From positions 1 through 64,000 of the forward strand of contig NZ_PJJJ01000024.1 of assembly GCF_002929495.1 (NCBI RefSeq): a DNA stretch of 64,000 nucleotides. Reading direction: 5' to 3'. This document shows, piece after piece, positions 11,791 through 53,822 of the stretch. The stretch is from Cryobacterium sp. Y82. GTDB taxonomy: Bacteria; Actinomycetota; Actinomycetes; Actinomycetales; Microbacteriaceae. The notes under the pieces are model-generated. The model was not told the origin of the DNA. It ran no database searches and saw only the letters and a program-made list of their open reading frames with translations. The stretch's first letter is position 1. Each line of letters starts with the position of its first letter. Made by a program: the position numbers and the translations under genes.

Positions 11791-13035
11791 CTAGACGGGG
11801 AACTGGTTTCGGCCGTCCTTCCACACCTGGTCGATCATGGTGGGGAGAGTTGCGAGTTGCTCGACGGAGTCGAGGCGAGCGTTCAGGATCACGGCGTCTG
11901 CCACATACGACGGAGCTAATCGCCCGACGGATCCGAGGGGCGTGATGAGTTCTCCGGCCACCGACGTCGTGGCGGCGAGTACCTGCTCGAGCGTCATGCC
12001 CACCCCGGCGAGCAGGGCTAACTCCTGTAGGTTTTCGCCGTGCACGCCCACCCCGGAATCGGTGCCCATGGCGATACGCACACCGGCGGTGACTGCTCGT
12101 CTGATGGATTCCCGGTGAATGTCAATGACCTGATGAGCTTTCGCGATAACCAGCGGCGAGAGTCCGCTCTGTCCCGTTGCGGCCTTGCGAATCACAGCCT
12201 CCGGTGCGGCGAGGGTGGGAACGAGGTACGCGTTCTTCTCCAGGAAGAGGGCGATGGCTTCGTCGTCGAGATAGATTCCGTGCTCAATCGTGCGCACCCC
12301 CATCCGGAGGGCGTTTTTGATTCCGGCGGCTCCCTGCGCGTGCGCCATGACATATTTACCCTGCGCTTCGGCCTCCTCCACGATGACCCGAATCTCGGTC
12401 TCGGTGAATTGCGAGTGCCGCGGATCATCCGTCGGCGAGAGCACGCCGCCGGTCGAGCAGATCTTGATTTGGTCGGCGCCGGCCCGAAGCATGCGCCGAG
12501 TGACCTTGCGCACTTCTTCGACTCCGTCCGCGATTCCGCTTGGACGGCCGGGGTGTGAACCCATGGTTGGGGACTCCGCTCCGGAAGGCTGCCAGAAGTC
12601 CGCGTGTCCGCCGGTTTGGGACATGATGCTGATTGCCAACCGCAGGCGCGGACCCTTGATCAGTCCACTGTCAACGGCAAGCTTGGTGCCCAGATCGGCG
12701 CCGCCAGCGTCGCGAGCCGAGGTGATTCCGGCGCGCAGGGTGGCTTCGAGATTGCGAACTGATTCGTAAAACTGCAGGGAGAACGGTTCGGTGAAAGCCT
12801 GAAGTGATCCCGGGTTCGAGGTTGTGGAGTGGATGTGCAGGTCGATCAGCCCGGGCAACACCGTCTTGCCGGTGCAATCGATCACGCTGGCGTTCGCAAA
12901 AGCCGGGTCAGATCCGGCCTGCGGGCCGACCGCCGCGACAGTGGGTCCAGTGAAGACAATGTCCGTCGGCTCGGGAAGGAACCGTTCGCCGTCAAAAACA
13001 TGGGCATTCTGGAAAACAGTTGAAGAGACAGTCAT
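11791..13035 (-). CDS. Amidohydrolase superfamily protein (prolidase/imidazolonepropionase-like)
   Basis: About 414 residues with a complete binuclear metal set: DLHIH (His67, His69), a Lys in DQIKICSTGG likely carbamylated, His in VMAHAQG, His in RTIEHG, and Asp in MGTDSG. The closest general type is the Xaa-Pro dipeptidase/aryldialkylphosphatase-related amidohydrolases, which hydrolyse N-acyl or dipeptide amides. No signal peptide, so cytosolic. AAAGG lies before the ATG. It leads an operon with the transporter downstream and has a 9-bp hairpin in its leader. Substrate unknown. Confidence 0.75.
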   Translation of the reverse strand: MTVSSTVFQNAHVFDGERFLPEPTDIVFTGPTVAAVGPQAGSDPAFANASVIDCTGKTVLPGLIDLHIHSTTSNPGSLQAFTEPFSLQFYESVRNLEATLRAGITSARDAGGADLGTKLAVDSGLIKGPRLRLAISIMSQTGGHADFWQPSGAESPTMGSHPGRPSGIADGVEEVRKVTRRMLRAGADQIKICSTGGVLSPTDDPRHSQFTETEIRVIVEEAEAQGKYVMAHAQGAAGIKNALRMGVRTIEHGIYLDDEAIALFLEKNAYLVPTLAAPEAVIRKAATGQSGLSPLVIAKAHQVIDIHRESIRRAVTAGVRIAMGTDSGVGVHGENLQELALLAGVGMTLEQVLAATTSVAGELITPLGSVGRLAPSYVADAVILNARLDSVEQLATLPTMIDQVWKDGRNQFPV

Positions 13036-13077
13036 GAGGACCTTTCAGTGGGTGCCGGCGGGGCGACCGGGGAGCCC

Positions 13078-49930: not shown

Positions 49931-50650
49931 TCAGCGTGCGGCGCGAGCGGCGCGACGGGTGAGCCCGTGCACGGTGGCCTGGTAGTCCTTGATGTTGAGC
50001 GGGCGGCCGGGCAGCTTGGGCCGGGTCGCGTCGGCCACACGCAGGCCGTCGAGCACGATGGAGAGCTGCCGACGCCACTGGCCGGCATAGCCGGCGCCGA
50101 GGCCGCCCAGCGATCCGACCATAGTGACGAGCACAGCGAGGTCGACCGCGTCCACGTCCCGGCGCAGGGTTCCGTCCTTTTTCGCGCGGGCCACGAGACT
50201 TGCGATGAAGCCGTCGAACTCGGCGGCGGGTCGCGCCGACGGGTCCAGTTGGGCCATGCGGCGCAAAATCGGCGGCAGCGCCGGTTCAGCGACGAGCCAT
50301 TCCGCAACCCGTTCGGTGTAGATGACGAGCGCCTCCCACGGGTTGGGCGCCGCCTCGATCTCTCCGCGCACCGCGTGCAGTTCGGCGAGGGCGAGGTCGT
50401 AAAGCGCTCGCACAAGGTCGTCTCTGGTCGGAAAGTTGCGGTACAGGGTCGCCACGCCAACCTCGGACTGACGCGCGATCTCCTCGAGTGAAGCATCGAT
50501 ACCGTGCTGCGCGAACTGGGCGCGAGCCGACACAATGAGGCGGTCACGGTTCAGCCGGGCGTCGCGACGACGAGGCGGCACGGGTGCAGACTTCTCGGGT
50601 GCAGACGGGGTTGGCACGCCATCCTGAGGCTTTCGGGTCGGCGGGGTCAT
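49931..50650 (-). CDS. TetR family transcriptional regulator
   Basis: 239 residues. After a basic Pro-rich head, the TetR helix-turn-helix lies at about 36-80 (RLIVSARAQFAQHGIDASLEEIARQSEVGVATLYRNFPTRDDL), then a helical ligand domain. It is divergent from the kynA-amidohydrolase-kynU operon, 96 bases away, and is the likely regulator of tryptophan breakdown. The ligand might be kynurenine or tryptophan (inference). The ATG at 50650 is chosen; a longer reading would run back through kynA. Confidence 0.85.
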   Translation of the reverse strand: MTPPTRKPQDGVPTPSAPEKSAPVPPRRRDARLNRDRLIVSARAQFAQHGIDASLEEIARQSEVGVATLYRNFPTRDDLVRALYDLALAELHAVRGEIEAAPNPWEALVIYTERVAEWLVAEPALPPILRRMAQLDPSARPAAEFDGFIASLVARAKKDGTLRRDVDAVDLAVLVTMVGSLGGLGAGYAGQWRRQLSIVLDGLRVADATRPKLPGRPLNIKDYQATVHGLTRRAARAAR

Positions 50651-50746
50651 GAGCTCCAGTCTAGAACTTCGGCCGGCACGGTTCGCTTTAGTGTTGCGCC
50701 CATCGCTGCAACCTGCGCACAATTTGAACAAGCCGAACGGAACCCG

Positions 50747-51601
50747 ATGACTCTCAAGAACAACACTCGCGAATTCGACCCCAAGATTGTCACCGATTTT
50801 CGAGAAAAGATGAGCTACGGGGCCTACCTCGACCTGCCCACGCTGCTCGATGCGCAGAAGCCGGTCAGCGTTCCGGAACACCACGATGAATTGCTCTTCA
50901 TCATCCAGCATCAAACCACAGAGCTCTGGCTCAAGCTTGTGCTCCACGAACTGCACGCGGCCATCGAGGCACTGCGTCAGGACCAGCTCGCGCCAGCCCT
51001 GAAGGGTATCGCCCGGGTCAAGCATATTCAGCGCACCCTCACCGAGCAGTGGTCGGTGCTCGCCACCCTGACGCCCACTGAATATGCCCAGTTTCGGCAC
51101 TATCTCGGCAACTCCAGCGGGTTCCAGTCGTATCAATACCGCGCGGTCGAGTTCGTGCTCGGCAACAAGAACCGCCGCATGCTCACGGTTTTCGAAGCGG
51201 ATGCCCCGGCCCACGCCCTGCTGACCGCAACACTCGAAGCGCCCAGCCTCTACGACGAGTTTCTGCGCTATTTGCACCGGGACGGCTTCCATATTCCGGC
51301 CGATGTACTCGAACGCGACGTGACCGAGGCTTGGACATTTCGCCCAGAGCTCGTGCAAACTTTTCGCGGAATCTACGAGAATGCCAGCGAACACTGGGCC
51401 GCCTATGAGGCCTGCGAGGAACTCGTCGACCTCGAAGACAATTTTCAACTCTGGCGGTTTCGCCACCTCAAGACGGTGCAGCGCATCATCGGCACGAAGC
51501 AGGGCACCGGGGGGTCGAGCGGCGCGGCCTTTCTGCAAAAAGCTCTCGAACTCACCTTTTTCCCAGAGCTGTTCGCCGTACGCACGGAGATCGGCGCGTG
51601 A
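50747..51601 (+). CDS. kynA: Tryptophan 2,3-dioxygenase
   Basis: 284 residues, normal bacterial length. Signatures: SYGAYLDLPTLLDAQKP, HHDELLFIIQHQTTELWLKL (substrate and heme pocket), LGNSSGFQSYQYRAVEF, and FRHLKTVQRIIGTKQGTGGSSG, whose His is the heme ligand. It opens the indole ring of tryptophan to N-formylkynurenine. First gene of a tightly overlapping three-gene operon. The ATG at 50747 lacks a clear ribosome site. Confidence 0.96.
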   Translation: MTLKNNTREFDPKIVTDFREKMSYGAYLDLPTLLDAQKPVSVPEHHDELLFIIQHQTTELWLKLVLHELHAAIEALRQDQLAPALKGIARVKHIQRTLTEQWSVLATLTPTEYAQFRHYLGNSSGFQSYQYRAVEFVLGNKNRRMLTVFEADAPAHALLTATLEAPSLYDEFLRYLHRDGFHIPADVLERDVTEAWTFRPELVQTFRGIYENASEHWAAYEACEELVDLEDNFQLWRFRHLKTVQRIIGTKQGTGGSSGAAFLQKALELTFFPELFAVRTEIGA

Positions 51602-52497
51602 CCACTCATTTTCTGGTCGGTCGAGGCTCGGTGTTGCCGGGCTTTCTCGACGCGCACGTGCACCTCGCCCTGATCGACGCAACTCTCTTGCCCGGTGGCG
51701 GAATCGCTCGGGCGTTCGACCTCGGCGGCTGGCTGCCGGACGGTCTCAACACTGCTATGCCCGATTTGGCATGCGCACACCAGTTCATCACTGCTTTCGG
51801 CGGCTACCCTCTGCGTGCCGGGTGGGCCGAGCCCGGCTGGAGCTGTGCGGTCGCCTCAGCAGCGGACGCCGCCATCGCGGTCGATCTGCAGGCGGCAGCC
51901 GGGGCATCCGTTCTAAAAATCACCCTGAACTCACTGGCCGGGCCGGTGCTCGGCACCGAGGCTCTGGCCGCGGTCGTCGGCCGGGCACACGAGTTGAAGC
52001 TGCCGGTCGTCGCACACGCCGAGGGTGCGGGACAGGCCGATCGCGCGTTTGTGGCCGGAGCGGATGCCTTCGCCCACACCCCTTTTTCGGAGTGCCTCCC
52101 CGACGATCTCGTGACCGCGATGGCCGCACGCATGACCTGGATCAGCACGCTGGACATTCACGGTTGGGGTCGCCCCACCCCCGCATTTGAGATTGCGAGC
52201 GACAATCTGCGTCGGTTCCATGCGGCCGGCGGCCGGGTGCTCTACGGTACCGATCTCGGCAACGGGCCACTCCCACTCGGTTTGAACTCCCGTGAGATCA
52301 CGGCGCTGCTTGGCGCCGGACTGTCCCCCGACGACGTCCTGACCGCGCTCTGCTCGCCGGCACCGCTCGGCCTGACCCTGGCCGACACTCGGGTCACATT
52401 TATTCCGGGCGAACGACCACGTAACCCCGAAGACTTCGCCGACTGGCTCGTCACCGCTCGCGCCCTCACCCGTTTTGAACTGGAGGTTCTCGCATGA
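51598..52497 (+). CDS. Amidohydrolase in the N-formylkynurenine formamidase position
   Basis: 299 residues of the metal-dependent amidohydrolase superfamily. All ligands are present: His20 and His22 (GFLDAHVHLAL), Lys107 (VLKITLNS), His140 (VVAHAEGAG), His160 (DAFAHTPFS) and Asp219 (YGTDLGNG). It is shorter than usual for imidazolonepropionase-like enzymes and lacks most of the extra beta sandwich. Its GTG overlaps the kynA stop (GTGA) and its stop overlaps the kynU start (ATGA), so it is made in step with both. The pathway step missing between those two enzymes is removal of the formyl group from N-formylkynurenine. No KynB-type or alpha/beta-hydrolase formamidase is present here. Function inferred from context. 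Confidence 0.8.
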   Translation: MTTHFLVGRGSVLPGFLDAHVHLALIDATLLPGGGIARAFDLGGWLPDGLNTAMPDLACAHQFITAFGGYPLRAGWAEPGWSCAVASAADAAIAVDLQAAAGASVLKITLNSLAGPVLGTEALAAVVGRAHELKLPVVAHAEGAGQADRAFVAGADAFAHTPFSECLPDDLVTAMAARMTWISTLDIHGWGRPTPAFEIASDNLRRFHAAGGRVLYGTDLGNGPLPLGLNSREITALLGAGLSPDDVLTALCSPAPLGLTLADTRVTFIPGERPRNPEDFADWLVTARALTRFELEVLA

Positions 52498-53822
52498 CAC
52501 CCACTATGAACGGTGCGAATAGCCTCGATGTCCCCCTCGCTTTTGCCCGGCGGATGGACCGCATTGACGGTCTGGCGCACTTTCGCGCCAGGTTTCTGGG
52601 AACCGACGCCGACGCCGCCAACCCACGCGCCTACCTCGACGGCAACTCGCTCGGACGCCCGCTGCGGGCCAGCGCCGAACGCATCGCCGACTTTCTGCAA
52701 CACGACTGGGGCACCCGGCTCATTCGCGGCTGGGACGAGCAGTGGATGGAACTGCCCTTGCAGATCGGTGACGACCTCGGCCTGGCCTGCCTCGGCGCCG
52801 AGCCCGGGCAGGTTTTCGTCGGTGACTCGACCACCGTGTTGCTCTACAAACTGGCCAGGGCCGCCGTGGATTCACGGCCGCGACGCACCGAGATCGTGCT
52901 CGACAGTGACAACTTTCCCACCGACCGCTACGTTTTGGAAGGCATCGCGCGCGAGCGCGGCCTGACACTCCGGTGGATCGATTCCGATACCGAGGGCGGG
53001 GTCACCGCCGAACAGGTACGCAGCGTCGTCGGCCCGCAGACCTCGCTCGTGCTGCTCAGCCACGTGGCCTACCGCTCCGGCTACCTCGCCGACATGCAGG
53101 CCATCACGGCCGTCGCGCACGAGCATGATGCCCTCGTGCTCTGGGATCTGAGCCACTCGGTCGGGTCTGTTCCAATCGAACTCGACCGCTGCGACGTGGA
53201 TCTCGCGGTCGGCTGCTCCTACAAATACCTGAGCGGGGGCCCGGGGGCTCCGGCCTTCGGGTATGTGAAAAGCGACCTGCAGTCCGTGCTGACCCAGCCG
53301 ATTCAGGGGTGGATGGGTTCTCAAGCCATCTTCGAGATGGGGCCGGGGTACCGGCCGGCCACCGGCATCCGTCGATTCATGAGCGGCACGCCTGCCGTGC
53401 TGGGTATGCTCGCCATGCAGGACACCATCGCCATGCTGGGCGAAGCCACGATCGGGGCGGTACGAGCCAAGTCGGTCGCGCTGACCGAGTTCGCGATCAC
53501 GCTTGTTGATGACTGGCTTGCGCCGATGGGGGTCACCGTTGCCTCGCCGCGCGAGCAGACCCACCGCGGCGGGCACGTGACCATCAACCATCCGCTTATG
53601 CGCGAGGTCACGAAGATTCTGTGGGACAACGATGTGATCCCGGATTTTCGGGCACCCAACGGGCTGCGGCTCGGCCTCGCCCCGTTCAGCACGAGTTTCG
53701 TGGAGACCTACGACGGGGTGGCCGCCGTGCGCGACGTATTGCGCGGCATTTTGCTCGGCCAGAGCGGCGTAGCAGAGTCGGCCCACACCGAGGCGGGCCA
53801 GCGCGGTCGACCCGGCCTATAG
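52494..53822 (+). CDS. kynU: Kynureninase
   Basis: 442 residues, PLP enzyme of fold type I. Conserved segments: AYLDGNSLGRPLRAS, DSDNFPTDRYVLEGI, LLSHVAYRSGYLADM, WDLSHSVGSVPIEL, the PLP-lysine motif GCSYKYLSGGPGAPAF, and a late GGHVTINHP. It splits kynurenine to anthranilate and alanine. The start overlaps the preceding stop (ATGA); a second in-frame ATG lies four codons later. No anthranilate-degrading genes follow in the window. Confidence 0.96.
   Translation: MTPTMNGANSLDVPLAFARRMDRIDGLAHFRARFLGTDADAANPRAYLDGNSLGRPLRASAERIADFLQHDWGTRLIRGWDEQWMELPLQIGDDLGLACLGAEPGQVFVGDSTTVLLYKLARAAVDSRPRRTEIVLDSDNFPTDRYVLEGIARERGLTLRWIDSDTEGGVTAEQVRSVVGPQTSLVLLSHVAYRSGYLADMQAITAVAHEHDALVLWDLSHSVGSVPIELDRCDVDLAVGCSYKYLSGGPGAPAFGYVKSDLQSVLTQPIQGWMGSQAIFEMGPGYRPATGIRRFMSGTPAVLGMLAMQDTIAMLGEATIGAVRAKSVALTEFAITLVDDWLAPMGVTVASPREQTHRGGHVTINHPLMREVTKILWDNDVIPDFRAPNGLRLGLAPFSTSFVETYDGVAAVRDVLRGILLGQSGVAESAHTEAGQRGRPGL

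Follow-up and report, generated by a model that had tools for sequence, protein, structure and literature searches.

The kynA-AH-kynU locus of Cryobacterium sp. Y82

In a 64,000-nucleotide stretch of the Cryobacterium sp. Y82 genome (contig NZ_PJJJ01000024.1, positions 1 to 64,000; hereafter the window), a gene for a compact metal-dependent amidohydrolase (AH) lies between kynA, encoding tryptophan 2,3-dioxygenase (TDO), and kynU, encoding kynureninase, and we predict that AH is the N-formylkynurenine formamidase acting between these two enzymes. The three genes and the presumed metal-ligand codons of AH are as follows.

50747..51601, + strand: kynA, tryptophan 2,3-dioxygenase (ATG at 50747, stop TGA at 51599-51601)
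51598..52497, + strand: AH, compact metal-dependent amidohydrolase, predicted N-formylkynurenine formamidase (GTG at 51598, stop TGA at 52495-52497, 299 amino acids)
52494..53822, + strand: kynU, kynureninase (ATG at 52494, stop at 53820-53822)
51655..51663, + strand: codons of His20 and His22 (DAHVH motif, first barrel strand; 141/142 aligned rows, the exception being cut by a contig end)
51916..51918, + strand: codon of Lys107, presumed carboxylated bridging lysine (142/142 rows; aligns with the Lys of seven outgroup amidohydrolases)
52015..52077, + strand: segment containing the His140 codon (52015-52017) and the His160 codon (52075-52077), both residues in 142/142 rows
52252..52254, + strand: codon of Asp219, presumed catalytic base, within the signature YGTDLGNG (142/142 rows)

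The kynA product matches TIGR03036 with 402.8 bits (cut-off 390.7) and PF03301 with 208 bits and is the sole TDO match in its genome, and the kynU product has a clear match to PF22580 KYNU_C (87.8 bits) and a match to TIGR01814 slightly below the cut-off (229 bits, cut-off 246.4). All three genes are on the + strand and, as a sequence-only reading of the window had claimed, AH overlaps both neighbours by four bases, GTGA at kynA/AH and ATGA at AH/kynU. The ligand set proposed in that reading (His20, His22, Lys107, His140, His160 and Asp219) was also found, all six residues standing at these positions.

The AH protein family

The full ligand set is kept in 141/142 rows of the AH alignment, two defective copies (loci L073 and L094) having been removed ahead of the ligand count, and it aligns with HHKHHD of the seven outgroup amidohydrolases, the binuclear lysine-bridged pattern, in order on the barrel. 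The AH family forms a single clade in the tree, and fold prediction gives AH a triosephosphate isomerase (TIM)-barrel amidohydrolase structure like that of metal-dependent amide hydrolases. Pfam and NCBIfam assign AH no function because its matches to PF01979 (24.2 bits, gathering score 25) and to a prolidase-like NCBIfam model (38.7 bits, cut-off 500) are weak. PF01979 is precomputed on most of the 120 close AH homologues (best 120 of 1714), which, where named, belong mostly to Cryobacterium, Glaciibacter and Leifsonia and are annotated as amidohydrolase, imidazolonepropionase-like or hypothetical. AH gave no match at E <= 1 to TIGR03035 or PF04199, the models of the cyclase-fold formamidase KynB, and inspection by eye found neither the cyclase motif HxGTHxDxPxH nor the GxSxG nucleophile and HGGxW oxyanion motif of alpha/beta hydrolases. 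A second, distant amidohydrolase is encoded in the window (11794-13044, - strand, about 417 amino acids), which has the same six ligands and a longer part before HxH and branches in the tree as an outgroup of the AH family.

Association of AH with kynA and kynU

Three samples were analysed: 199 Microbacteriaceae genomes (AH called at 142 bits or more), 347 genomes at the order level (AH called at 138 bits or more, the next match having 117), and named loci, which are the best 80 of 460 stretches encoding an AH relative at E <= 1e-3. The gene caller built for this analysis misses some genes, more in low-GC genomes. Among the Microbacteriaceae, TDO was present in 69/199 genomes and AH in 57/199, with both in 49, TDO only in 20, AH only in 8 and neither in 122 (Fisher p = 5e-22, genomes treated without kinship correction). 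At the order level, AH was found in 30/347 genomes, and TDO in 27/30 of these versus 115/347 overall (hand count). The 68 other Microbacteriaceae TDO loci (one per genome) were 42 TDO-AH-kynureninase (including the decayed-AH loci L073 and L094), 5 TDO-AH, 5 TDO-kynureninase, 12 kynureninase-TDO and 4 TDO alone; in genome G170, one of the last four, the TDO locus adjoins a contig end and AH occurs on a different contig next to a fragment of TDO.

Named loci gave the same picture, with 69 kynA+AH+kynU, 8 AH+kynU, 1 kynA+AH and 2 AH only (one at a contig end), so that kynA and/or kynU is present in 78/80. Outside Microbacteriaceae, AH loci occur in Cellulosimicrobium, Oerskovia, Isoptericola, Rhodococcus, Nocardia, Actinoplanes, Couchioplanes and Saccharopolyspora. 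Four Actinoplanes/Couchioplanes loci have the order kynA-kynU-AH; therefore, the association of AH with the kyn genes outlives rearrangement. In 65 named kynA-AH-kynU loci the four-base overlap was found at AH/kynU in 57 and at kynA/AH in 40.

In two loci (L264 and L266) genes for a PaaX-like regulator and a flavin reductase-like protein come after kynA-AH-kynU, and a gene for a 791-amino-acid monooxygenase, apparently of the anthraniloyl-CoA type, lies upstream on the same strand (all named by eye). By eye, this arrangement would be a longer tryptophan breakdown cluster, and the monooxygenase fits anthranilate as the pathway product.

Either AH or an alpha/beta-hydrolase arylformamidase

The arylformamidase-type alpha/beta hydrolase (ABH) is marked by HGG(F/Y)WR and GHSAGG, and its HGGxW and GxSxG motifs are invariant in seven aligned ABH. 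A line of 60 bits, picked after the score lists were known, was used for ABH and for cyclases. At 60 bits or more, ABH was present in 0/49 kynA genomes with AH versus 6/20 without AH (p = 3e-4). Where a formamidase could be identified, this is the outcome that the sequence-only reading had predicted. Five of the six ABH genomes carry it at the TDO locus and one (G138) elsewhere in the genome; ABH follows kynU in L078, L081 and L087 (in L087 with one gene between) and kynA in L092; the ABH-like protein of L080 is longer and is encoded ahead of kynA. In one genus of 6-10 Mb genomes, presumably Streptomyces, each of the 11 kynA loci fetched has ABH (119-186 bits) downstream of kynU. This actinobacterial ABH family probably includes SCO3644 of Streptomyces coelicolor, which is reported to be the tested formamidase there, SCO3644-3646 having reportedly been treated by Zummo et al. 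in 2012.

Among 20 TDO loci from other families of the order (L275-L294), AH is absent, and ABH of 85-102 bits was found in the fetched stretch of seven, several kb off in L275 and L278 and on the other strand in L283 and L294. No formamidase was found at the locus in the f2 genomes examined (such as L131, L276 and L280). Partial arrangements are common to both enzymes, kynA-AH (5 loci) corresponding to kynA-ABH (L092) and AH-kynU to kynU-ABH (L272), which supports equal roles for AH and ABH. The L272 pair stands in a genome without TDO (G045), in the same kynA-less layout as AH-kynU.

A hidden ABH formamidase in the Y82 genome was looked for and rejected: the best match was an esterase-like frame of 26 bits, and there were only weak generic alpha/beta hydrolases. 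At one kynA+AH locus (L108, genome G106) a nearby HGGAW esterase-like frame scored less than 30 bits with the ABH queries.

Predicted function and mechanism

AH takes the place of a missing ABH in Microbacteriaceae and in several further families of actinobacteria, and it is linked to kynA and/or kynU as an alternative to the other formamidases, with the exceptions given below. From these data we presume that AH is very probably a third structural class of N-formylkynurenine formamidase, non-orthologous to both KynB and ABH and belonging to the amidohydrolase superfamily. Such non-orthologous replacement of a pathway enzyme had been suggested by the sequence-only reading, and the co-occurrence with TDO and the exclusion with ABH lend it support. 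Gene order, co-occurrence, exclusion, ligands and predicted fold underlie this assignment, and from them we infer the substrate, the chemistry and the roles of residues.

In the predicted pathway, TDO opens the indole ring of tryptophan to give N-formylkynurenine, AH would strip the formyl group to yield L-kynurenine and formate, and kynureninase converts kynurenine into anthranilate and alanine. By analogy with the superfamily, a pair of divalent metals bound by His20, His22, carboxylated Lys107, His140, His160 and Asp219 would activate a bridging hydroxide, which would attack the formyl carbonyl of the formanilide, and Asp219 may shuttle a proton to the leaving aniline nitrogen. The family-specific residues Tyr70-Pro71, Trp76, His188, Asn222 and Glu233 might, as a guess, bind the substrate at its amino-acid end.

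Exceptions and alternative explanations

Several observations weigh against the formamidase assignment. Eight of the 57 Microbacteriaceae genomes with AH have no TDO, and in one group (g35, L123-L125) AH stands alone at the locus with kynureninase matches elsewhere. Fourteen of the 20 kynA genomes without AH also lack ABH of 60 bits or more; they comprise 12 with a divergent TDO in kynureninase-TDO order, G084 with TDO alone and G009, an assembly of lower quality in which ABH is split in two; a cyclase reaching 60 bits occurs in three of these 14 genomes. No formamidase was found at the locus in the 12 with the divergent TDO, of which all were scanned for motifs and four were read as gene lists; this layout is that of small-genome Microbacteriaceae (L105-L107 and L109-L117). 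In a genome of the same genus, G141 (L073, 7564-7995), AH is truncated and His20 is replaced, with kynA and kynU intact-looking. Two distant cyclase-family proteins are encoded elsewhere in the Y82 genome, C20 (69 bits) and C36 (45.1 bits; cut-off 223); C20 keeps the HxGTHxDxPxH motif and, as a distant KynB relative, matches the PDB KynB structure 4co9 at 2.6e-12. Cyclases of 60 bits or more are present in 18/49 kynA+AH genomes, and kynA and kynB can lie apart, as in P. fluorescens (PMC6930238).

The TDO-less AH of Microbacteriaceae are nested inside the TDO-linked family in the tree, which fits a later loss of kynA. AH-kynU pairs with no detectable TDO in the genome were seen in L118-L122 (groups g5 and g36), in L212 and L225 (Frigoribacterium) and in L265 and L267 at the order level, that of L118 adjoining an arabinofuranosidase-like gene. 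Such pairs possibly serve the scavenging of ready-made N-formylkynurenine. Frondihabitans L247 has a lone AH, with a kynureninase match elsewhere in two pieces; G891 has AH without TDO; and in Nocardia L228 and Actinoplanes L235 TDO lies elsewhere in the genome. Indoleamine 2,3-dioxygenase as the source of N-formylkynurenine matched 0/13 TDO-less AH genomes, which is uninformative, as control genomes gave no match either. Of the decayed copies, that of L094 (G139) has an internal stop and lies between intact-looking kynA and kynU. Elsewhere in G141 a cyclase scoring 89.5 bits is encoded next to agmatinase-like and transporter genes, in a cluster like that of C20, and this cyclase could have taken over from the broken AH; because of this possible stand-in, our confidence in the formamidase assignment was lowered very slightly.

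One alternative is that AH acts one step later, with kynureninase cleaving N-formylkynurenine and AH deformylating N-formylanthranilate, which would still make AH an aryl-formamidase of the same pathway. We regard this as quite unlikely. AH does accompany kynureninase, the model of which matched in all 22 genomes tested (15 with AH), although 4/22 matches were over the cut-off and 10/14 control genomes also matched, 2 of them over the cut-off; AH also follows kynU in the Actinoplanes-type loci. However, kynureninase normally needs a free aniline, and the five kynA-AH loci have no adjoining kynU, though kynU is elsewhere in those genomes. Moreover, AH takes the place of ABH, and alpha/beta hydrolases are a known enzyme class for N-formylkynurenine (PMC4217691, PMC5171882).

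The second alternative, which we consider very unlikely, holds that a cyclase encoded elsewhere is the real formamidase and that AH cuts another amide or peptide in the manner of a carboxypeptidase or prolidase, for example releasing tryptophan from dipeptides. The absence of KynB and ABH reported in the sequence-only reading holds for the locus itself. As to its refuting case, a canonical formamidase elsewhere in the genome, no protein of the Y82 genome exceeds the KynB cut-off, but the distant KynB-like protein C20 is present and, with kynA and kynB separable, is the main caveat to our assignment. A canonical KynB elsewhere was rejected as the main explanation on the low scores, on location and on distribution. 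The cyclases looked at (C20, C36 and G141) sit in other clusters, with agmatinase-like and NCS1-type transporter genes around C20 and CoA-transferase, PrpD-like and hydantoinase-like genes around C36 (genes named by eye), and cyclase matches are independent of TDO (38/69 genomes with TDO versus 70/130 without, p = 0.88). KynB exceeded the TIGR03035 cut-off in 1/199 Microbacteriaceae, a genome without kynA. No TIGR03035 match at E <= 1e-3 was found in 17/49 kynA+AH genomes, including G078 and G193 of the same genus, both of which carry kynA-AH-kynU, and in these 17 genomes AH is the only candidate formamidase seen. A cyclase as the real enzyme would also leave the exclusion between AH and ABH unexplained.

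Finally, that the step is spontaneous or carried out by housekeeping deformylases, with AH as a passenger or serving a side product, has in its favour kynA-kynU loci without a recognisable formamidase (L070, L083, L131, several of L275-L294 and the small-genome type L105-L117), but it is very unlikely in view of ligands conserved over wide divergence and frequent four-base overlaps, which speak for selection on AH together with its kyn partners.

Comparison with known enzymes

The amide hydrolases compared with AH were Cc2672 Arg/Lys carboxypeptidase (3mtw), a Zn-dependent Arg carboxypeptidase (3be7), a Xaa-Pro dipeptidase (2qs8) and ochratoxin hydrolases (8ihs, 4c65), a group that we take to be of COG1228 type. 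Compared with them AH is shorter by about 100 residues, at 16-24% identity, and those enzymes have other substrates. In the window protein most of the segment that usually precedes the HxH strand is missing. The motifs GGYP, STLDIHGWG and GTDLGNGP of the AH family are missing from the seven outgroup amidohydrolase rows. Identity of AH to phenylurea hydrolase B (4whb) and molinate hydrolase (4wgx), which act on xenobiotics, is 15-16%. ABH, the animal/yeast type, resembles AH in its place in kynA/kynU operons, and the two were never found together in the 69 kynA genomes (ABH at 60 bits or more); however, ABH is a serine hydrolase with HGGxW and GHSAGG, whereas AH has neither motif and carries metal ligands instead.

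Arylformamidase is a textbook step. The function is already known, and it is AH as a protein class for that function that appears to be new. KynB (PF04199 cyclase fold, TIGR03035) is like AH in the predicted reaction, the predicted binuclear metal chemistry and the operon with kynA/kynU, but it has the cyclase fold and its own motif, whereas AH is a predicted TIM-barrel amidohydrolase without a TIGR03035 match; in PMC4243253, the KynB fold is described as distinct from the amidohydrolase superfamily and the metal chemistry is compared. A 2014 evolutionary study names two non-orthologous enzyme types for this step (PMC4217691), and PMC5341072 uses the superfamily name loosely for a cyclase-fold esterase. 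Within the accessible text of PMC5341072, PMC4243253, PMC13151070, PMC5171882, PMC4217691, PMC4349456, PMC9481534, PMC10608976 and PMC6930238, the word amidohydrolase is used either for different enzymes or for the cyclase type. A literature search covering titles and abstract openings, with most subscription journals outside its coverage, gave no assignment of an amidohydrolase-superfamily protein to this step. If AH is the formamidase, a third type would fill a gap in the kynurenine pathway of many actinobacteria, the annotations amidohydrolase and imidazolonepropionase-like would give way to a formamidase name, and the step would offer a natural example of one reaction served by three folds.

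Further, we tentatively propose, as a rather doubtful scenario, that AH, as an independently evolved class, was recruited once in actinobacteria from carboxypeptidase-like amide hydrolases and displaced ABH, and that the kynA-less AH-kynU pairs (Frigoribacterium etc.) are a scavenging module for N-formylkynurenine from, for example, photo-oxidised tryptophan on leaves.

Neighbouring regulator gene

One further open frame lies just upstream of kynA, its family and start being called by eye.

49931..50651, - strand: TetR-type regulator gene, divergent from kynA

Judged from its position and frame, it is a possible candidate regulator of the kynA-AH-kynU operon.
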